Under the pieces are notes generated by a model. The model saw nothing but the letters and a program-made list of their open reading frames with translations. It did not search any database and was not told where the DNA came from. A stretch of DNA of 64,000 bases from Bradyrhizobium commune (lineage in GTDB: Bacteria; Pseudomonadota; Alphaproteobacteria; Rhizobiales; Xanthobacteraceae), in contig NZ_CP061379.1 of NCBI RefSeq assembly GCF_015624505.1, forward strand, positions 1,674,001 through 1,738,000, in the 5' to 3' direction. Positions 27,082-52,637 of the stretch are shown here, one piece after another. Both the position numbers and the translations under genes were made by a program. Each line of letters begins with the position of its first letter. Positions within the stretch are counted from its first letter, which is position 1.

Positions 27082-29868
27082 TCAGGCGCCCACACGCTGC
27101 CGTGGAGGCCTGATGACACTTGTTGTTCGCGCCTCGAGAACCGCCGCAGGAAAATCGCGGAACACCCGTGCTACCGGTAGTTCGTTGCCGGCCAGTCCCG
27201 GCGCGGCATAGCCGGTGATATCGACGGTCGCGTCGAGACTCTCGGACACGGGCCATTCCCGGCCCGCCTGTGTGAATGGCGCGAACAGACGTCCGACGAC
27301 GACGATCACGGCGTCGCGGTCGCGACGACGGGCGAAGGCGATGACATGGTCGGCATGCGCGCCGCGGACCTCCAGCGGCTGGTAGTCGCCATGAGCAAAC
27401 ACATCTGGGAGCGCGTTGCGTAACTTGAGGAGATATCGGATCCAGGCGAGCTTGAGCTGTCCGTCTGGCCAGGTCTTGATCAGGCCGCTCCAGTCCGGGT
27501 TGTCCAATAACGCCAGCGCCACATATCGAGCGGAAAAATCCACGGGCCGGCGATTGTCGGGATCGACCAGCGACAGGTCCCAGAATTCGGTGCCCTGGTA
27601 GAAATCGGGCACGCCGGGCAACATCGCCTTGAGCGTGAGCTGGCTCAGCGAATTCAACGTGCCGAGCAGCGCGATGCGGCGCGCCAGGGTTTCTAGCGAT
27701 TCCAGGAATTCGGCTGATACCGCAGGATCGAGAATCTTCTCGATGTAGCTCTTCACGCCGCTCTCATACGCCTCATGCGGATTGAGCCAGCTCGTCTCCT
27801 CCTTGCCCTCTCGCGCGGCCTTGAGCGCGTAGGCCTGGATGCGTTCGACGAAGCTGGCATCGGTCAGCCCCTGAAGCGGCCAGGCGCCGAGCAGCGTCTG
27901 GTAGAGCATGTATTCGAACGTCGCCGACGGCGCGCGCAGGTTGCCGCGGAGCGCGAGATGCTCTGCGTTCAAGACTTTCCAGCGTGCCACGGCGCTTCCC
28001 CACTCGCCGGGAATCTCGCCGAGTGCCGTGATCCGCGCGCGGGCATCCTCGCCGCGCTTGGTGTCGTGGGTCGCGGTCGCCGTCATGCCGTGCGGCCACT
28101 CTTTCGCGCGTGCCTTCATCGCTTCGTGGAAGGCAGGGATTGCGAGGCCGTGGCTTGCGGGATCGCCGCCGACTTCGTTCAGGGCGAGCAGGCGGTGGAA
28201 TTGATAGAAGGCGGTGTCCTCCAGCGATTTCGCCATCATCGGCCCGGTGAATTGCTGCACCTTGAGCGCGAAGCGGCGCACGCGCGGGGCACTGTGTGGC
28301 GGGCGGCCCGGCTTGAGCAGATCCATGGTCAAGGCATCGCGCAGGAAGTCGAAAATGCCTTCGTCGGTGGCGAACCATTCCGCGCGCGCCCGTGCGATTG
28401 TGTCGTCGATCAGCTTGCGGTCATGCGCGATCGGCGCGGCCGTCGTGAGATAGGTGCGGTAGACCGGGAAATGCAGCACATAGAGCTCGAGCGCTTGCCG
28501 CAGGCTGTCGGCGGAGAAGTCGCGTGTTGAATAATGTCCGTTGGCGATGCGCGCGAGCAGGCGCGTCAGAACGGTGAATTCGCTGGTCAGCAAAGTTTCC
28601 AGCACGCGCCGCTTGGCGTCCTTGACGTAAGGCGCAAGCCGCGGCGGCCGGTTGCTGATCTGCCGCCAGGTCTCGTCCAGCGCCTCCAGTCCCTTGGGAT
28701 CGACCAGGACTTGCGTGATGGCGTTCATCCACTCATAGCCGGTGGTGCCCTGCACGCCGGCGAAATGCGGCAGGCGCTCGTGCTCGCACAGGATCTTTTC
28801 GATCACCGTATAAAAGGGCTTGGCGTTGCCTTGGGCGTCGCGGACCAATCGGTGCAGCCGCTGGCAATATTGCGCGGGATCGCGCAGGCCGTCGATGTGA
28901 TCGAGACGGATACCCTGCAGCCTGCCGTCGGCGACGAGCTGCTTGACCAGCCGGTGCGTGGCGGCGAAGGTGCTCGCGTCCTCGACGCGCAGGCCGGCGA
29001 GCCCGTTGACGTCGAAGAAGCGCCGATAATTGATATCGCTCGATGCAAGCCGCCAATGGCCGAGCTTGTAATGCTGGCGCTCGAGCAGGTGATGCAGCGC
29101 CAGCGTCTGCGCCGGGCGGTCCTTGGCGGCGCGATAGGCGGCAAGGCCGTGTGCGATGATATCGGCGCCGCCCGAGATGTCCTTGAGCTCTGCCTTGAAG
29201 GCGGGCGCCTCCTTGCGGTTCGGCCGGCGCAGACCCGTATAACGCGCCGCAAGCGACAGCAGACGCTTGCCGGCTTCCGTCTCCGCCGCATCTGCTTCCT
29301 TCACGATCAGCCGCAGCAGCTCGCCATATCGCTCGGGCGCGATCGGCAGCCGATGCTCAAAGTACCAGGCGGAAAAGCTGCCTTCGTCGGCATCGTAGCG
29401 CAGCTCGATGTCGCCGCGCTCCAGTGCCTCGCCATAGGAAGAACCAAGGATCGGCAGCAGCACACCGCCACGGGCGCGGTGGGGCAAGAGATCCCAGTCG
29501 ATATCGAAAGCGGCTGCGTGCGGCGAAGTCGGTCCCCATTCCAGCACGTCCAGCCACCAGGGATTGTCGGCAAAGTGCACGCCGACATGGTTCGGCACGA
29601 AATCGATGATGAGGCCGAGGTCGTGCGTTCTGAGCGCCTCACTCAGTCGTGCAAAGCCGGCCTCGCCGCCAAGCTCGGGATTGAACTGGCTGTGATCAAC
29701 GGTGTCGTAGCCGTGGGTCGAGCCCTTGCGCGCCTTCATCACCGGCGAGGCGTAGAGATGCGTGATGCCGAGCGCCTTCAGATAGGGCACTACCGCGGCC
29801 GCCTTGTCGAAGTCGACATCCGCGGTGAGTTGCAGGCGGTAGGTGGCAAGGGGAATGGCGGGAGGCAT
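27082..29868 (-). CDS. treY: Maltooligosyltrehalose synthase
   Basis: TreY converts the reducing end of maltodextrins to an alpha,alpha-1,1 linkage, giving maltooligosyl-trehalose. The 928-aa GH13 product starts at ATG 29868 (MPPAIPLATYRLQL) behind GGAGG, one base after the treZ stop. Catalytic motifs are GIRLDHIDGLRDP (nucleophile), YTVIEKILCE (acid/base) and THDTKRGEDARAR. The C-terminal VPDFYQGTEFWDLSLVDPDN is typical. It is the last gene of the glycan run; TreZ upstream releases trehalose. Confidence 0.95.
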   Translation of the reverse strand: MPPAIPLATYRLQLTADVDFDKAAAVVPYLKALGITHLYASPVMKARKGSTHGYDTVDHSQFNPELGGEAGFARLSEALRTHDLGLIIDFVPNHVGVHFADNPWWLDVLEWGPTSPHAAAFDIDWDLLPHRARGGVLLPILGSSYGEALERGDIELRYDADEGSFSAWYFEHRLPIAPERYGELLRLIVKEADAAETEAGKRLLSLAARYTGLRRPNRKEAPAFKAELKDISGGADIIAHGLAAYRAAKDRPAQTLALHHLLERQHYKLGHWRLASSDINYRRFFDVNGLAGLRVEDASTFAATHRLVKQLVADGRLQGIRLDHIDGLRDPAQYCQRLHRLVRDAQGNAKPFYTVIEKILCEHERLPHFAGVQGTTGYEWMNAITQVLVDPKGLEALDETWRQISNRPPRLAPYVKDAKRRVLETLLTSEFTVLTRLLARIANGHYSTRDFSADSLRQALELYVLHFPVYRTYLTTAAPIAHDRKLIDDTIARARAEWFATDEGIFDFLRDALTMDLLKPGRPPHSAPRVRRFALKVQQFTGPMMAKSLEDTAFYQFHRLLALNEVGGDPASHGLAIPAFHEAMKARAKEWPHGMTATATHDTKRGEDARARITALGEIPGEWGSAVARWKVLNAEHLALRGNLRAPSATFEYMLYQTLLGAWPLQGLTDASFVERIQAYALKAAREGKEETSWLNPHEAYESGVKSYIEKILDPAVSAEFLESLETLARRIALLGTLNSLSQLTLKAMLPGVPDFYQGTEFWDLSLVDPDNRRPVDFSARYVALALLDNPDWSGLIKTWPDGQLKLAWIRYLLKLRNALPDVFAHGDYQPLEVRGAHADHVIAFARRRDRDAVIVVVGRLFAPFTQAGREWPVSESLDATVDITGYAAPGLAGNELPVARVFRDFPAAVLEARTTSVIRPPRQRVGA

Positions 29869-29869
29869 G

Positions 29870-31624
29870 CTAACCTCCGAGACGCCAGACCACCGACCAG
29901 GGCGGAAGCCGGTTGCCGGCCGCGCCGCCCCAGATCGGCGTGGCCGCATCATTGTCCGTGTGTGTGATGTCCTTGTCCGACAGATTGGCGGTCAGGCGCA
30001 ATGTCGCACCATCCTCCATGCGCCAATGTGCGGTCAGCAAGCCGTTGTCGGCGGCCTCGGCAGCGCCGAATCTCGCGCCCTTTAGGCGTGGTGCGATCTC
30101 CTTGCGGCGGAGCGTGAGCAGATCGCGCACGAGCGCAAGCCGCGCGTGCTGCTGCGCCGTGCGGCCGGTCCAGTCGAGCACGGCCGATTCCATCGTGGCC
30201 GGATCGAGCGGATCCGGCACATCGTCGCCGTATTTTTCGTAAGCCCAGGCATATTCCTGCTTGCGGCCCTTGCGCACGGCGTCCGCCAGCCCGCCTTGGA
30301 AATCGCAAAAGAACGGGAAGGGCATCTTTGAACCCCATTCCTCGCCCTGAAACAGCATCGGCACCATCGGCGCGAGCAGCGTCACCGCAAGCGCGGCCTC
30401 GATCTCTCCCGGCGTTGCCAGGCTCTCGAGCCGGTCGCCGAGCGGCCGGTTGCCGATCTGGTCGTGGTTTTGCAGAAAGTTGACGAAGGTCGTTGGCGGC
30501 AGCTCGCCGCTTGGTTCGCCGCGCGGCTTCTTGCCCCAGAATTCCGAGATCTCGCCCTGATAGACGAAGCCCGAGGCGAGCGCACGCGCGAGGTCCATGC
30601 GCGGCGTCTGGTAATCGGCGTAGTAGCCGGCGAGCTCGCCGGTCAGCATCACATGCCAGGCGTGGTGGTAATCGTCGTTCCACTGCGCGCGATATTTGCC
30701 GTTCGGTGGCTCCTGCGCGGCATCGAGCAGGCTGGCGCGATTGTCGCCATTCTCCAGCACGAGGTGGATGTGCCGCCCGGTGGCCTTGGCCAGCTCGCCG
30801 GCGGCGACGCTGAGCTCCTGCAACATCGACTGCTCGCCGGGGATCGTCATGATGTGGTTGGCGGCATCCAGCCGCAGGCCGTCGAAGCGATAGTCTGTCA
30901 GCCAGCACAGCGCATTCTCGACGGCGAAAGCACGCACCTGCGGCACGCGATAGTCGATCGCGCTGCCCCAGGGCGTATGTGCATCGGTGAAGAAAGTCGG
31001 CGCGTAGCGACCGAGATAATTCCCTTCGGGGCCGAAATGATTGTAGACGACGTCGAGAAACATCATCAGCCCGCGCCGATGCGCCTCGTCGATCAGCCTC
31101 TTCAGGTCTTCGGGTCGGCCGTAGGCGCTGTCGGGCGCGTACCACAGCACGCCGTCATAGCCCCAGCCGCGGCGGCCGGCGAAATCGGCCAGCGGCATCA
31201 ATTCCAGCGCGGTGATCCCGGTCGCGACGAGATGATCGAGCCTGTCGATCATCGCGCGGTAAGTGCCTTCCGCCGTGAAGGTGCCGACATGCGTCTCGAT
31301 CAGCACCGTCTCTTCCCATGGGCGTCCGCGCCAGTCCCTGGCGCGCCAGTCGAACGCGGCGTGATCGATCACCTCGCTCGGGCCGAACACATCCTCGGGC
31401 TGGAACGCCGAGGCCGGATCGGGCACGTCGATCTCGTCGTCAATTCGGAATTTGTAGCGGCTGCCGGCATCGAGGCCGGCAATCTCGGCTACATACCAGC
31501 CATCTTCGCGACGCCGCATGGCGTGACGCCGTTCGAGCAGCAGATCGACGCGCCTCGCGCCGGGTGCCCAGAGGCGGAACGATACGCCGTCCTTCGTCGG
31601 CCTGGCGCCGAAGGATGGCCTCAT
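29870..31624 (-). CDS. treZ: Maltooligosyltrehalose trehalohydrolase
   Basis: TreZ hydrolyses maltooligosyl-trehalose to free trehalose. The 584-aa product has an N-terminal Ig-like GH13 domain (VSFRLWAPGARRVDLLLE) and the barrel with MFLDVVYNHFGPEGNYL, FDGLRLDAANHI (nucleophile), LVLENGDN (acid/base) and VNFLQNHDQIGNRPLG. Its ATG overlaps the glgX TGA by four bases, and treY begins one base after its stop. Confidence 0.95.
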   Translation of the reverse strand: MRPSFGARPTKDGVSFRLWAPGARRVDLLLERRHAMRRREDGWYVAEIAGLDAGSRYKFRIDDEIDVPDPASAFQPEDVFGPSEVIDHAAFDWRARDWRGRPWEETVLIETHVGTFTAEGTYRAMIDRLDHLVATGITALELMPLADFAGRRGWGYDGVLWYAPDSAYGRPEDLKRLIDEAHRRGLMMFLDVVYNHFGPEGNYLGRYAPTFFTDAHTPWGSAIDYRVPQVRAFAVENALCWLTDYRFDGLRLDAANHIMTIPGEQSMLQELSVAAGELAKATGRHIHLVLENGDNRASLLDAAQEPPNGKYRAQWNDDYHHAWHVMLTGELAGYYADYQTPRMDLARALASGFVYQGEISEFWGKKPRGEPSGELPPTTFVNFLQNHDQIGNRPLGDRLESLATPGEIEAALAVTLLAPMVPMLFQGEEWGSKMPFPFFCDFQGGLADAVRKGRKQEYAWAYEKYGDDVPDPLDPATMESAVLDWTGRTAQQHARLALVRDLLTLRRKEIAPRLKGARFGAAEAADNGLLTAHWRMEDGATLRLTANLSDKDITHTDNDAATPIWGGAAGNRLPPWSVVWRLGG

Positions 31625-33699
31625 AGCGCCCCCGCGAAAGCGAGCACGGAACGCGGCGGCGCCTTGCTGTCGCTTCCGGGGAGGAAATCGACCGTGTTCA
31701 GCTTGGCGTCGGTCGTGTTCAGGATCTGCTGCCAGCTCTTGTATTCGGGCATCTTGGGCAATTTGAATGCGATCTCTTCGGGGGCGGCGTTCAGGACAAT
31801 AAAGATCGCAGCGCTGCCCGGTTCCATCGGTCCCATCACATAGGAGAGAAACCGCCCCTCAGGGAATTTCCAGTCGCTCTCGGTCATCTCCGCGCCTGCC
31901 GGCGTCAGCCACAATGCGCCATAGGAGATGCCGTCCTTGGGACGGCCGTCGAGCCAGCGATGGCTGCGGAGTTGCGAGAAGCGGCTGCGGATGTCGGCGA
32001 GATGGGTGACGAAGTCGACCATGTCCTCGCCGTCCTTGCCGAGATTGTCCCAGCCGACCCAGCCGACCTCGTTGTCCTGGCAATAGGCGTTGTTGTTGCC
32101 GGATTGCGAATTGCCGACCTCGTCGCCGGCGAGAAGCAGCGGAATGCCCTGCGCCAGCATCAGGCAGGCCAGCACGTTCTTGCGCAGCTGCCGGCGCAGC
32201 CCGAGGATCGTTGGATCGTCGGTCGGTCCCTCGACACCGCAATTGTTGCTATGGTTGTCGTTGGAGCCGTCGCGATTGTCCTCGCCATTGGCCTCGTTGT
32301 GCTTCTCGTTGTAGCTGAAGAGATCGGCGAGCGTGAAACCGTCGTGGACGGTGATGTGGTTGATGCTGGCGCGCGGCCTGCGTCCGTCATGGTTGAACAG
32401 GTCGGAGGATGCCGTCATGCGGCTGGAGATGTCGCCGATCAGGCTGCCTTCTCCGCTCCAGTAGCGGCGCATGGCGCTGCGATAGCGGTCGTTCCACTCC
32501 GACCATTGCGAGGGAAACGCGCCGACCTGGTAGCCGCCGAGCCCGAGATCCCATGGCTCGGCGACGAGCTTGACGGTGGCGAGCACCGGATCCTGCCGGA
32601 TCGCGGTGAGGAACGAGATGCCGCGATCATAGCCGTTCGGCCCGCGCGCGAGCGTGGTGGCGAGGTCGAAGCGGAAGCCGTCGACATGGCAGACCTCCAC
32701 CCAGTAGCGCAGCGAATCCATCACCATCTGCAGCACGCGCGGATGGGCGAGGTTCACCGAGGAGCCGCAGCCGGTGAAGTCATCATAGTAGCGCGGGTTC
32801 TCGCGGTTCAGCCAGTAATAGGAGGCGTTGTCGATGCCGCGATAGCACAGTGTCGGACCGAGATGGTTGCCCTCGGCGGTGTGGTTGTAGACGACGTCGA
32901 GCATCACCTCGATGCCGGCATCGTGCAGCCGCGCCACCGTGGTGCGGAAGGAATCCAACGCGTTGTCCTGGGCGTAGCGCGGCTCCGGCGCGAAGAAGGA
33001 CAGCGTGTTGTAGCCCCAGTAATTGGCGAGCTTCTTCTCCACCAGCACGCGGTCGTCGACGAAGCTGTGAATCGGCAGCAGCTCCACCGTGGTGACGCCG
33101 AGCTTCTTCAGATGCTCGATCATCGCGGGCGATGACAGGCCGCCATAGGTGCCGCGCAAATTCGGCGGCACGTCGTCGCGCTTCTGGGTCAGGCCCTTGA
33201 CGTGAGCCTCGTAGATGATCGTGTCTTCCCAGGCGATGTTGGGGCGGATCTCGCGGCGGCCCCAATTGAAGGTCTCGTCGACCACGACGGCCTTGGGCAT
33301 GCCGCGCGCATTGTCGCGGCGGTCGAAGGACAGGTCCTCGCGGGGCGAGCCGGTGCGGTAGGCGAAATGCGCATCGCTCCAGACCAGCCGGCCGGCGAGC
33401 CGCTTGGCGTAGGGGTCGAGCAGCAACTTGTTGGCGTTGAAGCGGTGGCCGTGCTCGGGTTCGTAGGGGCCGTGCACGCGATAGCCGTAGAGTTGGCCGG
33501 GCGAGACGTCGTTGAGATAGCCGTGCCAGACGTCTTCGGTGCGTTCCGGCAGCTCGATGCGTTCAAGCTCGCGCCGGCCCTGGCTGTCGAATAGGCACAG
33601 CTCGACCTTCTGCGCGTTGGCGGAAAACAGCGCGAAATTGGTGCCGCGTCCGTCCCAGCTTGCACCGAGGCGAGCGGGCGATCCAGCAGTCAGGCGCAT
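31621..33699 (-). CDS. glgX: Glycogen debranching enzyme
   Basis: GlgX cleaves alpha-1,6 branches left by phosphorylase. The 692-aa product has the CBM48-like N-terminus (GTNFALFSANAQKVELCLFD), the isoamylase-type barrel (MLDVVYNHTAEGNHLGPT, FRFDLATTLARG, KLVAEPWDLGLGGYQVG) and NITVHDGFTL-like INHITVHDGFTLADL with SYNEKHNEANGEDNRDG. The start is three bases after the glgB stop. It would feed linear maltodextrins to TreY. Confidence 0.95.
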   Translation of the reverse strand: MRLTAGSPARLGASWDGRGTNFALFSANAQKVELCLFDSQGRRELERIELPERTEDVWHGYLNDVSPGQLYGYRVHGPYEPEHGHRFNANKLLLDPYAKRLAGRLVWSDAHFAYRTGSPREDLSFDRRDNARGMPKAVVVDETFNWGRREIRPNIAWEDTIIYEAHVKGLTQKRDDVPPNLRGTYGGLSSPAMIEHLKKLGVTTVELLPIHSFVDDRVLVEKKLANYWGYNTLSFFAPEPRYAQDNALDSFRTTVARLHDAGIEVMLDVVYNHTAEGNHLGPTLCYRGIDNASYYWLNRENPRYYDDFTGCGSSVNLAHPRVLQMVMDSLRYWVEVCHVDGFRFDLATTLARGPNGYDRGISFLTAIRQDPVLATVKLVAEPWDLGLGGYQVGAFPSQWSEWNDRYRSAMRRYWSGEGSLIGDISSRMTASSDLFNHDGRRPRASINHITVHDGFTLADLFSYNEKHNEANGEDNRDGSNDNHSNNCGVEGPTDDPTILGLRRQLRKNVLACLMLAQGIPLLLAGDEVGNSQSGNNNAYCQDNEVGWVGWDNLGKDGEDMVDFVTHLADIRSRFSQLRSHRWLDGRPKDGISYGALWLTPAGAEMTESDWKFPEGRFLSYVMGPMEPGSAAIFIVLNAAPEEIAFKLPKMPEYKSWQQILNTTDAKLNTVDFLPGSDSKAPPRSVLAFAGAL

Positions 33700-33702
33700 A
33701 TG

Positions 33703-35850
33703 TCAGCTTTCCGGAACGAGGAAGATCGCGGCCAAAGGCGGGATAGTGAGGCGGAGCTCGGGCGTCTTGCCGTCAACGGCCTGAACCTCGCCGATGTTCC
33801 CGACATTGCTGCCGCCATAATGGGCGGAGTCCGAATTGAATACCTCTTTCCACTTGCCGGCAAACGGCACACGAACGCGATAGTTGCGATAGACGTTGGG
33901 TGAGAAATTGACGATCACGAGGCAGCGCGCGTGATCGTCAAATCCCTTGCGCAGCCAGGCGAACACGTTGCGGTTGGCGTCGTTGGTGATCAGCCATTCG
34001 AAGCCGGCCTGGTCGCAATCCATCTGATGCAGCGCCGGCACCGCGCGATAGAGCCGGTTGAGGTCGCGGATCAGCGCCTGGATGCCCGAATGGTTCTTGT
34101 ATTCCAGCAGGTGCCAGTCGAGCGACTGGTCGTGATTCCATTCGCGGCTCTGCGCGATTTCTGCGCCCATGAACAAGAGCTTCTTGCCGGGATGGCCGAA
34201 CATGAAGCTGTAATAGGCCCGCAAATTCGCAAAGCGCTGCCACTCGTCGCCGGGCATGCGGCCGAGGATCGAGCGCTTGCCGTGCACGACCTCGTCATGT
34301 GACAGCGGCAGGATGAAGTTTTCCGAGAAGGCGTAGTGCAGGCCGAACAGGATCTCGCCGTGATGATGCTTGCGGTGGATCGGATCCTTGCTGATGTAGT
34401 TCAGCGTATCGTGCATCCAGCCCATGTTCCACTTGTAGCCGAAGCCGAGCCCGCCGAATTCCACGGGGCGCGAGACCTGCGGCCAGGCTGTGGATTCCTC
34501 CGCCGCCGTGGTCGCCTGCGGGAAGCGGGCGAACAGTTCGGTGTTGAAGCGGCGCAGGAACGCAATCGCCTCGATGTTCTCGCGGCCGCCATACTGGTTC
34601 GGAATCCAGGCGCCGGGCGGGCGGCTGTAGTCCAGATAAAGCATGGAGGCGACCGCATCGACGCGCAGGCCGTCGATGGCGTAGCGCTCGAGCCAGAACA
34701 CCGCGTTCGACACCAGAAAATTCGTCACTTCGGTGCGGCCGTAATTGTAGATCAGCGTGCCCCAATCGAGGTGGCGGCCCTGGAGCGGATTGGCATGCTC
34801 GTAAAGCGAGGTGCCATCGAAGCTGCCGAGCCCGTGCGGATCGTCGGGGAAGTGGCCGGGCACCCAGTCGAGCAGCACGCCGATGCCCTCACGGTGGCAG
34901 GCATCGACCAGCGCGGCGAAATCTTCAGGCGTGCCGAAGCGGCTGGTCGGCGCATAGAGGCCGGTCGGCTGATAGCCCCATGAGCCGTCGAACGGATGCT
35001 CGCTCACAGGCAGGAATTCGAGATGGGTAAAACCCATGTCGCGAGCGTAAGCCGGCAATTGCTCGGCCAGCTCGCGATAGGTCAGCCATTCATTGTCACC
35101 CTTGCGGCGCCAGGAGCCGAGATGGACCTCGTAGATCGACATCGGCGCCGACAGCGCGTTGATGCCGTCGGGCGCCGGGCGGGGACGCGGGAGATGCGCC
35201 TCGTCGAAGACGATGGAGGCCGTCTTCGGCCGTACCTCGGCCGCAAAGGCCAGCGGATCGGATTTCAGCGGCAGTCGATGACCGTGCGGTCCGACTATGT
35301 CGAACTTGTAGTGGTCACCGGCGTTGGCGTGCGGGATGAACAATTCCCAATAGCCGGCGCCGCGCACCCGCATCGGATGGCGCCGCGAATCCCAGAAATT
35401 GAAATCGCCAACCACGGCGACGCGTCGCGCGTTCGGCGCCAGCACGACGAAGCCGATGCCGTCGACGCCGTCGAGCGTCATTGGATGCGCGCCGAGCTTG
35501 TCATAGAGGCGCTGATGGGTGCCTTCACCCAGCAGATAGAGATCGAAATCGGTCAGGATTGGCGGAAAGCGATAGGCGTCCTCCAGCTCGACGACGTCGT
35601 TGCCGAATTGCGCGCGCAACTGATAGCGTTTGGAACCGTTTGGCAGGGCGCCGATGAACAAACCGGAATCGTGGACGCGATCAAGCTTCGCCACCTCGCC
35701 GTGTTCGCCGATTGCCTCGACATTCGAAGCCTCGGGAAGAAACGCGCGAACCACGCTCTTGCCGCCCTCGGGATGCAGTCCGAGATAGTGGAAGGGATCG
35801 GAGTGGCGGCCCTCGATGATCGCGTAGGCCTCGGCAGGCAGTTTAGGCAT
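33703..35850 (-). CDS. glgB: 1,4-alpha-glucan branching enzyme
   Basis: GlgB forms alpha-1,6 branches. From ATG 35850 ([20 protein letters not shown]) the product is 715 aa, with N-terminal carbohydrate-binding modules and the catalytic barrel. Motifs are [27 protein letters not shown] (nucleophile), AAEESTAWP (acid/base) and [14 protein letters not shown]. The start overlaps the treS-mak stop by eight bases, so translation is coupled. Confidence 0.96.
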
Positions 35851-38800
35851 GTGCTTCGCTCTCGGCATTGGACAAAATGCGAAGCAGCCCGGTCAGCGGC
35901 GCATTGAGCCCGTCCGGCCGGTGCGACAGCTCGTACTCTACTTCGTCGAACGCGTGATCAAGCATGAAAAACCTTAACAGGCTTTCCGCGGACTTCCGAT
36001 TGTCCGGCCATAGCCGGCGGTCGGTCATGGTCTCGCGATAGGCGGTGAGGAATGTCGTGGTGGCGCGTTCGCGCCATTCGCCGAGGGCAGCTCCAATGCG
36101 GCCCTGCTCGTCGGGGCCGCCCGCGAGCGCGCGATTGAGCGCCGCGGTGGCCGCGAGCTCGATCGAGCGGACGAGGCCTGCGACGTCGCGCGCGGCAGGA
36201 GCCTTTCGCCGCTTGTCGGCCAGCGGCAGGCGCGGATCGCCGTCGAAATCGATGATGAAGATGTCGTCCTTCACGATCAGAGTTTGCCCGAGGCGGAAGT
36301 CGCCATGATGACGGATGTTCAACCCGCCGATGCCGGATGGCAATAGCGCCGTTAGCCGATCGGCCAGGTCCGCGCGCGCGGCGACGAGGCGGTCGACCAG
36401 CGGCCGGTCGGCCTCGCGCAGGCTGTTGCGGCTGTCGGCGAGCCGTTCGAACACCCGCTCGGCGCGCCCCTTGAGGTCCGAGGCCCAGCGCTTGAGGTGA
36501 GCCGGCCCGATCGCCTCGGGGGCGAGATCGGCAGGCTTGGCCGCGGCGAGTGCCATATGCAGCTCGGCAAGCCGCCGGCCGGTCTGCGCCAGATGGTGCA
36601 GATAGGGAACCTGGTCATGATGCTCGCGGGGGGTGTCGCTCGCCGCCAGCAGCCGCTGCTCGTCGACCTGACGGTCGAGATAGGAAGCGGTCACCGCCCA
36701 GCCGTCGCCCTGATTCTCGACATAGGCGTGCAGGACGCCGACGGCGCTGCGACTGTCGCCCTCGACAAGCTCGACGCTGCCGAGCAGCGCCGGCGCATGC
36801 GTAAAGCGGGCGACCTCGGTGAGATAATGGCCGATCTCGATCTCGGGATTGACGCCGCTTTCGAGCTGGCGATGGATCTTGGCGACATACTGGTTGTCGA
36901 CGAGGGCCGTGCTGTTCGACTGCTCGACCGCCCGGATGCGCGCGGGTTCCTTGATGGCGTATTCGGCGAATCGGCTGGTGGCCTTGAACTCCAGTCGCAG
37001 ATTGTTTTCATCCACAACGAGGTTCTGCGACAAGCCTCGCAGGAAAAGCCCGATGAAGATCTGGTCGGTCGCGACGTCGAGCAGCGTACCTTCGCGCGCG
37101 CCCTGGCGCACGGCGGCGAGCGCCTTCGGGTTGAAGCGCTCACGGTCGAACCGCACCCACTCGATTTGCATCGGCAGCACGTAGCGCGTCGTGACGTCGT
37201 CCTGCGGTGTTTCAAAGAACGCGATCCAGGGGCGGTTATCACCAATGTCGCTGAACGGCACCGCCGAGGTCAACGTGGCTTTGATGTGCTTGGGATTGTG
37301 CTCGGGATACCAGCGTGTCCGCGACAGGAATCCCGGGAGCACGTCGCGCTCGAACACGCCGCGTTCGCGCGCGAGCGACACCCAATTCGAATTAAGCGGC
37401 ACCACTAGCGTTTCGAACTCGGGAACCGCGCGTGGCGTCACTGGCTCGGACTTGTCGCGTTCCTGAAGCTGGAACCAGTAGAAGCCGTAAGGCCCCAGCG
37501 TGATCATGTAGGGCAATTCGCCGATCGCGGGGAAACGCGTGCGGCCGAGCATCTCCTGCGGGATGCGGTCCTTCCATGGCGTGAGATCAAGCTCGGTCGC
37601 CTGCGCGGCACGTGACAGATTGGCGACGCAGAGGATCACCTCGTCGCGATATTGCCGGACATAGGCGAGCACGGCGCGGTTGGCCGGACGGATGAACGTC
37701 ATGGTGCCGCGGCCGAAGGCGAGCGTCGATTTGCGCACCGAGATCAGCCGCTTGGTGGCGCTGAGCAGCGATGACAGGCTGCGCGACTGCGCCTCCACGT
37801 TGACCGAATCGTAGCCGTAGACAGGGTCCATGATCGGCGGGGCGTAGAGGCGGGCGGGATCGGCGCGGGAGAAGCCGCCATTGCGGTCCGGGCTCCATTG
37901 CATCGGCGTGCGCACGCCGTTGCGATCGCCGAGATAGATGTTGTCGCCCATCCCGATCTCGTCGCCGTAATAGATGATCGGCGTGCCGGGGAACGACAGC
38001 AGCAGCGAGTTCATCAGCTCGATCTTGCGCCGGTCGTTGTCCATCAGCGGCGCAAGCCGCCGGCGGATGCCGACATTGATGCGGGCGCGCGGATCGTTGG
38101 CGTAGGTGGTCCAGAGATAGTCGCGCTCGACGTCGGTGACCATCTCCAGCGTCAGCTCGTCATGGTTGCGCAGGAACAGCGCCCATTGGCAGATCGCCGG
38201 AATGTCCGGCGTCTGGCGCAGAATGTCGGTGATCGGGAAACGGTCCTCCTGCGCGATCGCCATGTAAATGCGCGGCATCAGCGGGAAGTGGTAGGCCATG
38301 TGGCATTCGTCGCCACGGCCGAAATATTCCTGCACGTCCTCCGGCCATTGATTGGCCTCGGCCAGCAGCAGCTTTCCCTTGGAATAGGCATCGAGCTCCT
38401 GGCGCAGGCGCTTGATGATCGCATGCGTCTCGGGGAGGTTCTCGTTCGAGGTGCCCTCGCGCTCGCAGAGATAGGGGATGGCGTCGAGCCTGAAGCCGTC
38501 GACACCGGCGTCGAGCCAGCGCTTCATCACCTGGATGATGGCGCTGACGACGCGCGGATTGTCGAAGTTGAGATCCGGCTGGTGCGAGAAGAAGCGGTGC
38601 CAGTAGAACGCGCCGGCTTCGGGGTCCCAGGTCCAGTTGGATTTCTCGGTATCGGTGAAGATGATCCGCGTGCCCTGGTATTTCTGGTCGGTGTCGCTCC
38701 AGACATACCAGTCGCGGGCGCTCGAGCCCGCCGGGCTGCGGCGCGCGCGCTTGAACCAATCGTGTTGATCGGAGGTATGGTTGACGACGAGCTCGGTGAT

Positions 38801-39136
38801 GACGCGCAGGCCGCGCTTCTGCGCTTCTTGGATGAAGCGCTTGAAATCCTTCATCGTCCCGAAATCGGGATTGATCGAACCATAATCGCCGATGTCGTAG
38901 CCGTCGTCGCGGCCGGGCGAGGGATAGAACGGCAGCAGCCACAGCGCGGTGACACCGAGATCCTGGAGATAGGGCAGCTTCTCGGTTAACCCCGCAAAAT
39001 CGCCGATGCCGTCATTGTTGCTGTCGGCAAAGGCCTTGACGTGGAGCTGGTAGATGATGGCGTCCTTGTACCAGAGCTCATCCACGACCTCGGCAGCCTC
39101 GGCCTTTTTTGTATCGACGGAAGACAGAACGTTCAT
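35843..39136 (-). CDS. treS: Trehalose synthase-maltokinase fusion
   Basis: The N-terminal ~550 residues are TreS, interconverting maltose and trehalose, with [39 protein letters not shown] and [12 protein letters not shown]. After a linker, residues about 640-1097 are a maltokinase (Mak/Pep2) that makes maltose-1-phosphate: [19 protein letters not shown], then [11 protein letters not shown] and [16 protein letters not shown]. The usual Brenner motif HGDxHLGQ has Arg in place of the second His. ATG 39136 follows AAGGA; length about 1097 aa, normal for the fused form. It is second in the run, 11 bp after the GlgE-like gene. Confidence 0.94.
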
Positions 39137-39147
39137 GGCGTGAATCC

Positions 39148-41094
39148 TTACGCCAGGCAGCGGAACAACAGTGCGGGATCGCGGTCGGGATCGATCCGCA
39201 ATCTGATCCCGCCCCATTCGATACGGGACTGTTCGCCGGTGAGGAGATTTTCGAGTGTTGTGACGTGGCGGCGCTCGCCGTCGACGTCGATGGCGAGGTC
39301 GCCGAGCGGCAACCAGAATTCGCGCACATGGCGCGAGAGGGCGATGACGACGACGACCGTGTTGGCGGGTTCAGCCGCCTCCTTGGCGAAGGCGATCGTC
39401 TCGTCGTCCTCGATATTGAAGAAGCGCAGATCCGCCGTCTGCTGAAGCGCCGCATTCTCGTTGCGGATGCGATTGAGCGCGGTGATGTAGGGCTTGATGT
39501 TGCCGGGCTTGTCCCAGTTGCGCTGGCGGATCTGGTACTTCTCGGAATCCTGATATTCTTCGCGGCCGGGGACGGCCTCGTGCTCCAGCAGCTCGAAGCC
39601 GCTATAGACGCCGTAACTGCCCGACAGCGTCGCCGCGAGCGCAGCGCGCGACTTGAACGCCCAGGCTTCGCCGCTCTGGAGATGATAGGGCAGCAAATCG
39701 GGCGTGTTGACGAACAGGTTCGGTCGATAGAAGTCGCGCTCGGGATAGCGCGTCAGCTCACCAAGATATTGCTCCAGCTCCCATTTCGCGGTGCGCCACG
39801 GGAAATAGGTGAAGGATTGCGTGAAGCCGAGCTTGGCAAGCCCCTTCATCAGCTTCGGCTTCGCGTAGGTCTTGGAGAACAGGATCACCTCGGGATGCCG
39901 GCGACGGATGTCCTGGATCAGCCACTCCCAGAACGGCAACGGCGCGGTGTCGTGATTGTCGATGGCGAAGATGGTGACGCCGTGGTCGATCCAGAACAAC
40001 ATGGCGTCGCGGAATGCGTTCCAAAGTCCGATCCTGTCGACGGAGGCGAAATCGGGGATGACGATGTCCGAGTAGGGGCCATCCGCGGCCCGCACCGAAC
40101 GGTCCGGCCGCCACTTGAACCATTCCGGATGCTGCGTCAGCCAGGGATGATCCGGCGAGCATTGCGCGGCGAAGTCGAGCGCCAGCTCGAGACCGTATTC
40201 GAGGCAGGTCGCGACCAGCGCGCGAAAATCCTCGATGGTGCCGAGCTCGGGATGCAGCGCATCGTGTCCGCCCTCGGCCGAGCCGATCGCATAGGGCGAG
40301 CCGGGATCGCCCTCAGCGGCGACCGGAGCATTGTTGCGGCCCTTGCGGCTTGTGTGGCCGATCGGGTGGATCGGCGTGAAGTAGAGCACGTCAAAACCCA
40401 TTGCAGCGATCTCGGGCACGCGCGCGATGCAGTCGCGCAGCGTGCCGTGCTGGCCGGGCGTCCGGCTCTGGCTGCGCGGCATCATCTGATACCAGGCGCC
40501 AAAGCGCGCTCTGTCGCGGTCGATGATCAGCGGGAAGTTCGGCGAGCGGGTGAGGTCGGGCCGCGACTGGCTCTCCGACATGGCCGCGCTGAGCTCGGTT
40601 GCGAGCAGCGGCGCGACGTCACCGCTTTGAAGGTAGTCCTCGCATTGTCTGACGATGACGGCCGCGGCGTCCTGCTGCGCGCCATGCGCCTTGGTCAGGA
40701 GGCCGGCGCCCTCGATGGCATCGAGCGTGACGTCGGCGCCGGAGAGCTGCCTGCGTTCGAGCCCATGACGCCAGGTGGCGAACTCGTCGGTCCAGGCCTC
40801 GATCGCATAGACATATTCGCCGGGCTCGCCGGGCACGAACGCGCCGGACCAGCGGTCATCGCCGTGATGGGTCATCGGCTCGCGCCGCCACTCGCGCTCC
40901 TGCTCGCCGCGCCAGATCAGCGCGGCACTGACCACGGCGTCGCCGTCGCGATAGATATCGGCCCAGACCTCGATCCGCTCGCTCGCGATCCGCTTCACGG
41001 CAAAGCGGCCGCCGTCGATCAGCGGATAGACGTCTTCGATGATGAAAGCGCTGCCGGCTGCGGCACTTTCGACAGTTTGAATTGTCTTGTTCAC
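39148..41094 (-). CDS. GlgE-like maltosyltransferase homolog with altered active site
   Basis: GlgE transfers maltose from maltose-1-phosphate to glucan ends. This 648-aa GH13_3 protein has the DUF3416 N-terminal domain and conserved parts of the barrel: [63 protein letters not shown] and [10 protein letters not shown]. The nucleophile Asp is kept in [12 protein letters not shown], but canonical FRVDNPHTKP has Arg and Lys where this has Ala. The acid/base Glu of FLAEAFTRP is missing ([10 protein letters not shown]), and the phosphate-contact loop ENPPKKYQD is replaced by ADGPYSD. It is intact as a reading frame and heads the operon, so it is probably translated, but normal GlgE catalysis is doubtful. 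Confidence 0.85.
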
Positions 41095-41164: not shown

Positions 41165-41190
41165 AAAGCCGCTTGTGTGTCATTAGTTCC
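41165..41190 (-). promoter_or_regulatory. EcfG-like promoter for the glgE-like operon
   Basis: The minus strand reads GGAAC (41190-41186), 17 bases, CTTT (41168-41165). Three of four -10 positions match CGTT and the spacing equals the perfect site just to the right. It lies 71 bp before the operon start codon. Confidence 0.35.
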
Positions 41191-49787: not shown

Positions 49788-52637
49788 CTAGTTCAGTGCG
49801 TCGTTAAGCGCCGCATTGAGCGCCGCGAGACCCTTCTTGAGCGGACCCTTCAGGTGCACCCGAAGCGCGCGCCGGCCGCGCTCGGTGAGCACGTCGAAAT
49901 CGCCGCGGGCCTGCGCCGCCTTGATCACGCCGAAGCTCGCCTTCTGACCCGGCACGGCCAGGTCCTTGGCATCGTCAGCGGTGATCTGGAGGAACACGCC
50001 GCTGTCGGGCCCGCCCTTGTAGGCCTGCCCGGTGGAGTGCAGGAAGCGCGGGCCGAACTCGGCGGCAGTCGCCAGATGCCGCTTCTCGAGCACGGCCGTC
50101 CGCATCTCCTGAAGCGCCTCGATCGTGGCCTTGTCGCGCGCGATGTAGCCGAGCAGGGCGAAGTAGTCGCCATGGCGGGAGCGCGTGATATGCGCCTTCA
50201 GCCAGGAGGTGAGGTCGCCATTGGCCCCCATCGCGCGCAATGCGGCGGCGTTGGCGTCGTTGGTGTAGAGGTCGGCCTCAGCGGTGCTGACCACGGGCTG
50301 CTCCGGCGGCAACTCGCCGGTCTTCTCGTACGCTGCCGTCAGCTCGCGGGTCTTGATCTTGGCCGCTTCCACGTCCGGCTGGTCGAACGGGTTGATGCCG
50401 AGAATTGAGCCCGCCACCGCGGTCGCCATCTCGAAGCGGAAGAATTCCTGCCCGAGATGATCGATCGACTTCATCACGATGCGCACGGCGGGATGACCGG
50501 CCGCTTCGAGCGCGCTGAGCTTGGCGTCATGGTCGGCATCCGTTTCGCCTTCGGTGCGGATGTCGATGAAGAAGCGGTCGTTGCCGTAGACTGACGGATC
50601 GGCCAGCGGCTCGCCGGCGATCGGGATCAGACCCTTGCCCTCCTTGCCGGTCGATTCCGCGATGAGCTGCTCGGCCCAGGCGCCGAAATCGGCGATCTTC
50701 TTCGACGACAGGATCGTCACCTTGTCGCGGCCTTCAAGCCCGGCGAGGCCCATGGCGAGGCCGAGCTGCACGCCGGGGTTCTCAGCTGGCGGCACGTCCG
50801 GTCCGCACGAGCGGGCCATCGACAGCGCATGCTTGATCAGCGTCTTGACGTCGATGCCGGCGGTCGCCGCCGGCACCAGGCCGAATGGCGAGAGCACCGA
50901 ATAGCGCCCGCCGATCGACGGCTCGCCGTGGAAGATGCGGGCATAGTCGAGCTTCGTTGCTGCCTTCTCCAGCGACGAGCCGGGATCGGTCACCGCAATG
51001 AAGCGGAAGCCGGTCTTGGCCTTCGGCCCGATCGCCTGCGCGACGCGCTCGTGGAAATAGTCCTTCATCGCGTTCGGCTCGGTGGTGCCGCCGGACTTGC
51101 TCGACACGATGAACACGGTGTTGGCGATGTCGATCTTCGCCTCCATCGCCCGCACCTGCGCCGGATCGGTGGAATCCAGCACATGCAGCTTGGGGAAGCC
51201 CGCCTTCCTCGCAAAGGTCTCAGCCAGCACCTCGGGCCCTAAGCTCGATCCGCCCATGCCGAGCACGACGGCATCGGAGAATTTCTGGCCCTTCACGCGG
51301 CTGGCATAGTCCTCATAATCGGCGACGTCGGCTTTCGCTGCGCTGTCGAGCCAGCCAAGCCATTTGTTTTCATCCGTCCCGGTCCAGACCGATTTGTCGC
51401 GCTGCCACAGCCTGCGAATTTTTGCCGAGGCGCGCCATTCCTCGGTGCTCTTGGCGACTGCCTTGCCGAGTCCGTCACTGAGCGAGAGCTGCTGGCGGTC
51501 GATCGCAGGGCCGAGCACGGTTGCGCGCTTGTGCGCGACCGCGCCGTAGAGCTTGTCGGCGGCGTCGGCAAACTGCTTGACGCCGTCCTTGACGAGCTCT
51601 TCCGTGATCGCATCCAGCGAGATGCCGGAGCGCTCCAGCTCTTCGAGCACACGATAGGCGTCCTCGACATTCTCCTCCAGGCTGTCGCGCGGCTTGCCGT
51701 GGTCGCGGAACGCATCGAGCGTTGCCGGCGGCACGGTGTTGACGGTGTCGGGGCCGATCAGCTCCTCGACATAGAGGACGTCGCTGTAGTCCTTGTTCTT
51801 GGTGCCGGTCGAGGCCCACAGCATGCGCTGCGGCTTGGCGCCCCTGGCGGCGAGCTTCTCCCAGCGCGGCCCCGAGAACAGGCGCTTGTAATCCTGGTAG
51901 GCGACCTTGGCGTTGGCGATCGCGACCTTGCCCTTCAGTGCAGCAAGCCGCTCCTTCTCGGATGGGTCGTTGGCCCGCGCGATCTTCTCGTCGAGCTGCT
52001 TGTCGACCACGCTGTCGATACGGCTGACGAAGAAGCTCGCGACGCTTGCGACATGCGACGGATCGCCGCCGCCGGCGACATATTTCTCGAGGCCCGCGAG
52101 ATAGGCCTCGGCAACCCTGAGATAGACTGCCTTCGAGAACAGCAGCGTGATGTTGATGCTGATGCCGTCGCCGATCAGTGTCTCGATCGCCGGCAGGCCT
52201 TCCGGCGTCGCCGGCACCTTCACCATCAGGTTCTTGCGATTGACGTCCTTCCACAGCCGCCGCGCTTCGGCGATCGTGCCGGCGGTGTCCATCGCGAGGT
52301 AAGGCGAAACCTCGAGGCTGACATAGCCGTCATGGCCCTTGAGGCGATCGTAGACCGGGCGCAGCACGTCGGCGGCGCTCTGGATGTCCTCGACTGCGAC
52401 CGTCTCGAACAGATCGGCGACGGTCCGGTCGCCGCGCTTCAGCGCCTTGCCGATCGGGGCGTCGTATTCGTCGGAGCTGCCGATCGCCTTCTCGAAGATA
52501 GACGGATTGGACGTGACGCCTTTGACGCCATCGGTGTCGATCAGCCGCTTCAGGTCGCCCTTGGCGATGAAGCCGCGGGCCAGGAAGTCCAGCCAGACGG
52601 CTTGTCCGTGCTTTTCCAGTTCTTTGACGGGATTCAT
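49788..52637 (-). CDS. Bifunctional transaldolase / glucose-6-phosphate isomerase
   Basis: The 949-aa fusion joins transaldolase (residues about 1-370; GVTSNPSIFEKAI, Schiff-base Lys about 140 in LMVKVPATPEG, GISINITLLFS) with phosphoglucose isomerase (about 390-949; VVLGMGGSSLGPEVL, VSSKSGGTTEPNAM, GGRYSVLSPFGLVPAA, INPFDQPDVEAAK). Such tal-pgi fusions are known in several bacteria. It lets sedoheptulose/erythrose products return to glucose-6-phosphate next to zwf. It heads the minus-strand sugar-phosphate run. Confidence 0.95.
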   Translation of the reverse strand: MNPVKELEKHGQAVWLDFLARGFIAKGDLKRLIDTDGVKGVTSNPSIFEKAIGSSDEYDAPIGKALKRGDRTVADLFETVAVEDIQSAADVLRPVYDRLKGHDGYVSLEVSPYLAMDTAGTIAEARRLWKDVNRKNLMVKVPATPEGLPAIETLIGDGISINITLLFSKAVYLRVAEAYLAGLEKYVAGGGDPSHVASVASFFVSRIDSVVDKQLDEKIARANDPSEKERLAALKGKVAIANAKVAYQDYKRLFSGPRWEKLAARGAKPQRMLWASTGTKNKDYSDVLYVEELIGPDTVNTVPPATLDAFRDHGKPRDSLEENVEDAYRVLEELERSGISLDAITEELVKDGVKQFADAADKLYGAVAHKRATVLGPAIDRQQLSLSDGLGKAVAKSTEEWRASAKIRRLWQRDKSVWTGTDENKWLGWLDSAAKADVADYEDYASRVKGQKFSDAVVLGMGGSSLGPEVLAETFARKAGFPKLHVLDSTDPAQVRAMEAKIDIANTVFIVSSKSGGTTEPNAMKDYFHERVAQAIGPKAKTGFRFIAVTDPGSSLEKAATKLDYARIFHGEPSIGGRYSVLSPFGLVPAATAGIDVKTLIKHALSMARSCGPDVPPAENPGVQLGLAMGLAGLEGRDKVTILSSKKIADFGAWAEQLIAESTGKEGKGLIPIAGEPLADPSVYGNDRFFIDIRTEGETDADHDAKLSALEAAGHPAVRIVMKSIDHLGQEFFRFEMATAVAGSILGINPFDQPDVEAAKIKTRELTAAYEKTGELPPEQPVVSTAEADLYTNDANAAALRAMGANGDLTSWLKAHITRSRHGDYFALLGYIARDKATIEALQEMRTAVLEKRHLATAAEFGPRFLHSTGQAYKGGPDSGVFLQITADDAKDLAVPGQKASFGVIKAAQARGDFDVLTERGRRALRVHLKGPLKKGLAALNAALNDALN

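Follow-up and report, generated by a model that had tools for sequence, protein, structure and literature searches.

A GlgE homologue with substituted maltosyl-transfer residues is retained beside an altered maltokinase in a Bradyrhizobium clade

The closest described systems to the locus reported here are GlgE, the alpha-1,4-glucan:maltose-1-phosphate maltosyltransferase of family GH13_3, by which glycogen is normally made from maltose-1-phosphate, and maltokinase (Mak, also Pep2), the presumed source of that substrate. Published structures (PMC4526890) identify D394 as the GlgE nucleophile and E423 as the proposed general acid; the phosphate is bound by N352, K355, Y357 and N395, R392 touches O2', and the second glucose is bound by K264, N268, S279, D359, K534 and Y535. 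The acceptor site includes H397, W448 and R449 (PMC7805345). With regard to the kinase, mutation of Lys413, Tyr416 or Tyr420 reportedly left the maltokinase of M. vanbaalenii practically inactive (PMC4306142), and in maltokinase as well as in glucosamine kinase the sugar is contacted by a His and a Trp, here His307 and Trp428 (PMC6520443). We analysed a window of 64,000 nucleotides from Bradyrhizobium commune (contig NZ_CP061379.1, positions 1,674,001 to 1,738,000, forward strand), in which a GlgE-like protein, hereafter GlgE*, is encoded on the minus strand (41094..39148) next to a fusion of TreS with a maltokinase-like domain, Mak*. Residues that carry out maltosyl transfer are replaced in GlgE*, and the replacements are fixed across a large Bradyrhizobium clade of soil and root-nodule bacteria in which the kinase has also changed.

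The frame of GlgE* is open over its full length (GTG start, 648 residues). Pfam GlgE_dom_N_S matched it at 176.5 bits (cut-off 25) and GLGE_C slightly under its cut-off (24 vs 27 bits), and S. coelicolor GlgE1 was the best solved relative (phmmer E 6.8e-148), with similarity over the full length. The predicted model (predicted local distance difference test, pLDDT, 86.3; predicted template-modelling score, pTM, 0.85) had GlgE as its top match in both Foldseek and VIA. GlgE* is thus a GlgE homologue by descent and fold, and the intact frame and GH13_3 scaffold with its nucleophile Asp, as described in a first-pass annotation made from the letters alone, were confirmed. That annotation had also suggested looking for a second, canonical GlgE; neither a Pfam profile nor a protein search detected one in this genome, a single contig of 7.62 Mb. 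Judged by its sequence, GlgE* fails the tested defining residues of GlgE, and therefore the name maltosyltransferase should not be used for it.

Fixed substitutions around an intact maltose pocket

Motif residues are numbered below after S. coelicolor GlgE unless they are given as residues of the window's protein. Alignment to S. coelicolor GlgE1 showed that FRVDN has become FAIDN in GlgE* (R392A), with the nucleophile D394 retained as D379, that AEAFT has become SKTYA, the acid/base Glu423 being replaced by Lys408, and that ENPPKKYQDI has become DGP-YSDI with a three-residue deletion, by which N352 and K355 are lost and Y357 and D359 kept. The first-pass annotation had recognised the Ala before the nucleophile and the replaced acid/base Glu, and its view that the homologue has lost maltosyl-transfer residues holds; its statement that the phosphate loop is gone stands for N352 and K355 and fails for Y357 and D359. 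Beyond what it had listed, P396H, H397D and K399A lie beside the nucleophile.

All 117 derived loci (some genomes are counted more than once) share E423K, P396H, H397D and K399A, and 116 of them share R392A. When distinct clade sequences are considered, the Glu423 position is Lys in 108/108, compared with Glu in 40/40 canonical sequences, and the Arg392 position is Ala in 107 and Thr in one. The same changes are fixed over many independent genomes, which rules out chance or sequencing error as their source. The nucleophile D379 is present in 106/108 distinct sequences and the third carboxylate D466 in 108/108; D379 is replaced by V or A in the other two, with intact frames, and the nucleophile is A or G in 2/122 Lys-type proteins. 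Thirteen GlgE positions are conserved in both the derived and the canonical group but as different residues, and none of these switched positions gains a Glu (one, 382, gains an Asp), so that a newly fixed Glu in the acid/base place, which the first-pass annotation had counted as evidence against its proposal, was not found among them.

The maltose-binding part of the site is different in this respect. Across the -2/-1 subsites, K264, D359, N395, D480, K534 and Y535 are present in 117/117 loci, and Q324 (115), S279 (112) and N268 (107) are less universal. Of the phosphate contacts, Y357 and N395 are present and N352 and K355 missing; at the acceptor site W448 and R449 are retained and H397 is Asp. 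The solvent-facing pocket residues K519, Y520 and D343 are invariant in 108/108 clade sequences. With the second-glucose contacts kept and R392, E423, N352 and K355 gone, it appears that the sugar pocket has been preserved and that phosphate contacts and proton transfer have been lost. As far as residues can tell, GlgE* has therefore very probably lost the ability to transfer a maltosyl group from maltose-1-phosphate.

GlgE was detected in 116 of the 146 Bradyrhizobium genomes searched, and its motifs were read in all 116. They comprise 78 genomes with the derived Lys type, 14 with a class that we term C2 (altered phosphate loop EHPPQRWDD, Arg and Glu retained), 19 with a canonical GlgE beside treS-mak, 4 with a distant canonical GlgE (~60% identity) whose neighbouring Mak has no Bradyrhizobium-type TreS next to it, and 1 with a degenerate copy. 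The substitutions, whose fixation the first-pass annotation had proposed to check, thus characterise 78/116 GlgE-bearing genomes in a single clade. The derived type accounts for 78/80 named loci, and its species include B. japonicum, B. diazoefficiens, B. liaoningense, B. yuanmingense, B. canariense and B. betae. Relatives in C2 are named B. pachyrhizi, B. tropiciagri, B. jicamae and B. erythrophlei, a set that we take to be the elkanii group. In a TreS DNA tree (53 rows, 18 of them derived) the derived type forms one clade (SH-aLRT 98) and C2 another (99); protein trees of GlgE, Mak, MalQ and GH15 all recover both clades, and this agreement fits vertical descent. Outside the genus, in samples of limited size, Arg and Glu were kept at 22/22 loci in one sample and 24/24 in another (the genomes overlap). 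A DNA pattern for F-A-x-D-N-H-D matched 10 of 248 family genomes, all Bradyrhizobium, and 4 of 385 class genomes, two being Bradyrhizobium and two matching in unrelated frames.

Several other variants were seen among the relatives. The C2 loci (L069-L074, L175-L182) represent a second Bradyrhizobium lineage in which the same pathway is differently altered, and three C2/elkanii-type relatives (P0136, P0140, P0142) show further erosion, with Glu423 replaced by Gly. At the distant canonical loci L075-L078 (genomes G103, G052, G054, G110), the neighbouring Mak has 39-41% identity where measured (L075, L077), and the locus in G110 is frame-broken. Locus L079 (G083) combines a degenerate GlgE (FRADNPQAKP) with an adjacent Mak that is also degenerate; its genome has GlgC, and this is possibly an independent decay. 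Metagenome proteins P0146, P0147 and P0195 have Lys for Glu423 with Arg392 and P396-H397-K399 kept (P0195 with a slightly altered phosphate loop as well), and may be rare variants or point errors.

An altered kinase partner and the glycogen route

The gene after glgE* is the TreS-Mak fusion, whose open reading frame spans 35843..39217 and whose family alignments run from the ATG at 39136. The TreS motifs are intact in 80/81 clade loci, the remaining locus not being covered. In Mak*, whose numbering was carried over via alignment and spacing, the ATP Lys, Asp305 and Asp322 are kept in 95/95 distinct clade sequences, and the predicted model retains the maltokinase fold (pLDDT 83.2, best match 4u94). 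The sugar pocket differs: His307 is Arg in 95/95, Tyr416 is lost in 95/95, Trp428 in 95/95 (Gly in 94, Ala in 1) and Lys413 in 91/95, whereas all four residues are kept in 21/21 canonical and 14/14 C2 sequences. The change was present in 45/45 clade genomes with a full Mak sequence (of 78). The first-pass annotation had described the next gene as making maltose-1-phosphate; that gene is indeed TreS-Mak, but with the pocket lost throughout, production of maltose-1-phosphate by Mak* appears doubtful. Since Mak* has lost its maltose pocket and GlgE* its phosphate site in the same clade, both maltose-1-phosphate steps were altered together. In C2, the kinase P-loop Ser136 is Pro in 14/14 sequences; a mutation of Ser136 cost 97% of maltokinase activity in the part of PMC4306142 available, which suggests that the C2 lineage altered the same route via other residues.

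One explanation is that GlgE chemistry survives, with Asp382 or His381 as proton donor, Lys408 binding the phosphate and a residual Mak* activity supplying maltose-1-phosphate. Phosphate is a good leaving group, the nucleophile and D480 are mostly kept, and Asp382 is a newly fixed carboxylate beside the nucleophile. However, Arg392, Glu423, N352 and K355 are all lost, and Lys413 and Tyr416 of the kinase, whose mutation left practically no activity in M. vanbaalenii (PMC4306142), are changed here, which makes this explanation very improbable.

In the window, glgE* is followed by treS-mak, glgB, glgX, treZ and treY, all on the minus strand (Table 1), while malQ and a GH15 trehalase-like gene are oriented divergently to it. 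With regard to the alternative route to glycogen, GlgC was above cut-off in 77/78 derived genomes (the exception, G055, has two adjacent GlgC pieces), in 14/14 C2, 3/19 canonical and 1/4 distant canonical genomes and in the degenerate one; it was missing in 19/24 genomes with another, non-C2 GlgE. Among the 30 genomes without GlgE, 6 had GlgC above cut-off and 24 did not. In the own genome of the window glgA adjoins glgC, and GlgA, above cut-off in 143/146 genomes, was uninformative between classes. The presence of GlgC in derived genomes fits a maltose-1-phosphate route that was made dispensable.

A GGAAC element upstream of glgE, a possible promoter -35 box, was conserved in 159/159 clade, 20/20 canonical and 14/14 C2 loci, and the EcfG-type pattern GGAAC-N14..19-[CT]GTT matched none of the 159 clade upstream regions. 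In the accessible part of PMC8092242, treS of B. diazoefficiens (blr6767) is controlled by sigma-EcfG, and a treS mutant held more trehalose and less maltose. Our literature search, which covered open-licence PMC papers, turned up no description of the GlgE* variant and no mention of blr6766 or blr6768. Elsewhere in the window (49788-52637) lies a fused transaldolase/phosphoglucose isomerase gene of the known family NF007080.

Table 1 Features of the glgE* locus, in window positions.
Feature	Positions	Strand	Remarks
GlgE*	39148..41094	-	GlgE-like (GH13_3) protein, 648 residues, derived active site
GlgE* residues 376-385	39940..39969	-	Canonical FRVDNPHTKP; R392A, P396H, H397D, K399A; nucleophile Asp kept
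GlgE* residues 404-413	39856..39885	-	Canonical IFLAEAFTRP; acid/base Glu423 is Lys408
GlgE* loop ADGPYSDI, residues 337-344	40063..40086	-	Canonical AENPPKKYQDI; N352, K355 lost; Y357, D359 kept
GlgE* KGRNN, residues 251-255	40330..40344	-	-2 subsite K264, N268 kept (roles from an excerpt of PMC4526890)
GlgE* NTPD, residues 463-466	39697..39708	-	D480 (third GH13 carboxylate) kept as D466
GlgE* SEKY, residues 517-520	39535..39546	-	-2 subsite K534, Y535 kept
TreS domain of TreS-Mak fusion	37448..39136	-	Catalytic motifs intact
Mak* maltokinase-like domain	35843..37417	-	Remodelled sugar pocket, intact ATP/Mg core
Mak* catalytic loop HGDFRLGQ	36284..36307	-	Canonical HGDxHLGQ; catalytic Asp kept, His307 to Arg
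Mak* IDFDGDP	36233..36253	-	Canonical IDFEGEP; Mg Asp322 kept, E324D, E326D
Mak* helix	35930..35962	-	Canonical LEKAFYEIEYE; K413 to His, Y416 to Asp, Y420 kept
Mak* W428 to Gly	35909..35911	-	Sugar-contact Trp (role from an excerpt of PMC6520443); position by spacing from Y420
GlgB branching enzyme	33703..35868	-	
GlgX debranching enzyme	31621..33699	-	
TreZ	29870..31624	-	
TreY	27082..29952	-	
GGAAC element upstream of glgE	41186..41190	-	Possible promoter -35 box

Selection on GlgE* and its possible role

To describe constraint we used pairwise Nei-Gojobori ratios of nonsynonymous to synonymous substitution (dN/dS) at dS of 0.1-1.2, with at most 300 pairs per gene and no adjustment for their shared ancestry. 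The median was 0.152 for derived GlgE and 0.123 for canonical Bradyrhizobium GlgE, and in the barrel 0.110 vs 0.097. The new residues A377, H381, D382, A384 and K408 are themselves fixed in the clade, and K408, H381 and D382 occur in 108/108 sequences with synonymous codon changes. Open full-length frames were found in 77/78 clade genomes, the copy of G078 being frame-broken. These values indicate that purifying selection on GlgE* persists. TreS was the most constrained gene measured (dN/dS 0.044), and Mak* was somewhat relaxed (0.220 vs 0.171). Faster evolution on the clade stem was considered and rejected, as the stem of GlgE (0.172, motif columns removed) is not longer than that of MalQ (0.197).

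A slowly decaying relic of the maltose-1-phosphate pathway could account for the frame-broken copy in G078 (1/78 clade genomes), for the relaxed Mak* and for the decay-like cases nearby (L079/G083 and the three elkanii-type proteins with Glu423 replaced by Gly). We consider this decidedly improbable in view of the open frames in the 77 other clade genomes, the low dN/dS and the fixation of new residues.

Our preferred explanation, held with moderate confidence, is that GlgE* is a retained, non-transferring partner in the trehalose-glycogen operon that binds maltose or alpha-glucan; its preserved maltose pocket and the selection acting on it favour a binding role beside TreS-Mak*. Under this explanation the maltose-1-phosphate branch would be disabled at both steps while TreS, GlgB, GlgX, TreZ, TreY and MalQ stay; for glycogen, the clade has the ADP-glucose route of GlgC. 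GlgE* would bind maltose or the ends of glucan chains in its intact -2/-1 pocket and may act as a sensor or docking partner for TreS-Mak* and the glucan enzymes of the operon. The exchange of the Arg392/Glu423 pair for Ala/Lys could be part of this, as Lys408 may both neutralise the two Asp that remain and lock the pocket in a state suited to binding. Among the options raised in the first-pass annotation (a regulator, a glucan-binding scaffold or a new mechanism), the data thus favour a ligand-binding, non-transferring role.

Nonetheless, several observations weigh against a purely binding partner. The N/S and C domains evolve somewhat faster than their canonical counterparts (dN/dS 0.205 vs 0.135 and 0.203 vs 0.165), so a strongly conserved docking surface is not favoured. 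The nucleophile (106/108) and D480 (all sequences) are kept more than a pure scaffold needs, which suggests that some chemistry may remain, and activity has been reported for a GH13 enzyme whose triad is aberrant (PMC5347038). The association with GlgC amounts to only 2-3 changes on the tree, or 1-2 independent pairs, and the three GlgC-bearing canonical genomes have an adjacent TreS-Mak.

A related possibility is that GlgE* and Mak* persist only as structural subunits that hold or activate a TreS-containing assembly, the pocket being kept for folding. A TreS-maltokinase complex has been solved (5jy7), the Mak* domain is fused to TreS with its fold kept, and TreS itself is the gene under the tightest constraint. 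However, constraint within GlgE* is strongest in the barrel, which holds the sugar pocket, and weaker in the N/S and C domains, and the invariance of the solvent-facing K519, Y520 and D343 is also at odds with this possibility, which we regard as improbable.

The pathway may instead have been retooled, such that Mak* phosphorylates another small molecule and GlgE* acts on a different donor with a new site (Asp379, His381, Asp382, Lys408 and Asp466). In both GlgE* and Mak*, active-site residues changed on a single stem and were frozen afterwards; the core of the kinase is intact in 95/95 sequences while its sugar pocket changed and Arg was fixed for His307, and precedents exist in the glucosamine kinase that evolved from a maltokinase-like protein (PMC6520443) and in the active GH13 with an aberrant triad (PMC5347038). 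Nine of the 13 switched positions fall within active-site windows of the protein (p 0.0023 against 171 doubly conserved positions), but these windows were set post hoc, after the list had been seen. GlgE* has lost the GH13 Arg as well as the acid/base Glu without fixing a new Glu, some of its intact members lack the nucleophile, and Mak positions 413 (Q, H, R, K, L, T) and 416 (D, N, E, H, G, K, V) vary freely, as if no new specificity had settled. We therefore see retooling as unlikely, and its more specific form, in which the B. japonicum group turned TreS-Mak-GlgE into a new two-step sugar-phosphate system (a new-acceptor kinase and an Arg/Glu-less GH13 catalyst using Lys408, His381 and Asp382), as quite unlikely.

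Comparison with known systems

Names given to clade records include starch synthase (maltosyl-transferring) and alpha-1,4-glucan:maltose-1-phosphate maltosyltransferase, an activity that their sequences make unlikely. Both genes have been kept under selection despite rewritten active sites, and they probably do a new job. This represents a natural case in which the maker and user enzymes of a metabolite reported as toxic in mycobacteria were altered together and yet kept, so that a single genus offers ancestral and derived forms of GlgE and Mak for comparison. The case is also relevant to what TreS does in these bacteria, which is still unsettled (treS mutant; PMC8092242).

When compared with GlgE, GlgE* differs by R392A, E423K, H397D, P396H, K399A and the loss of N352 and K355. 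Mak* has the kinase fold, P-loop, ATP Lys, catalytic Asp305, Mg Asp322 and TreS fusion in common with maltokinase, but differs in that His307 is Arg, Tyr416 and Trp428 are lost and Lys413 is mostly lost. The glucosamine kinase of Actinobacteria (6hwj-6hwl) belongs to the same kinase superfamily as Mak* and provides a precedent for a change of acceptor; however, its signature Q-x(2)-RE-x(2)-YA-x(3)-LP-x-W, as given in the accessible part of PMC6520443, and its catalytic-loop His are absent from derived Mak*, and in the Mak* of the window the Arg and Trp positions of that signature are Asp and Gly. Finally, a known GH13 group with fixed altered catalytic residues resembles GlgE* in that a Lys replaces one carboxylate; that group, however, has its changes at the nucleophile and stabiliser and retains the acid/base Glu, whereas GlgE* has instead lost the Glu and the Arg.
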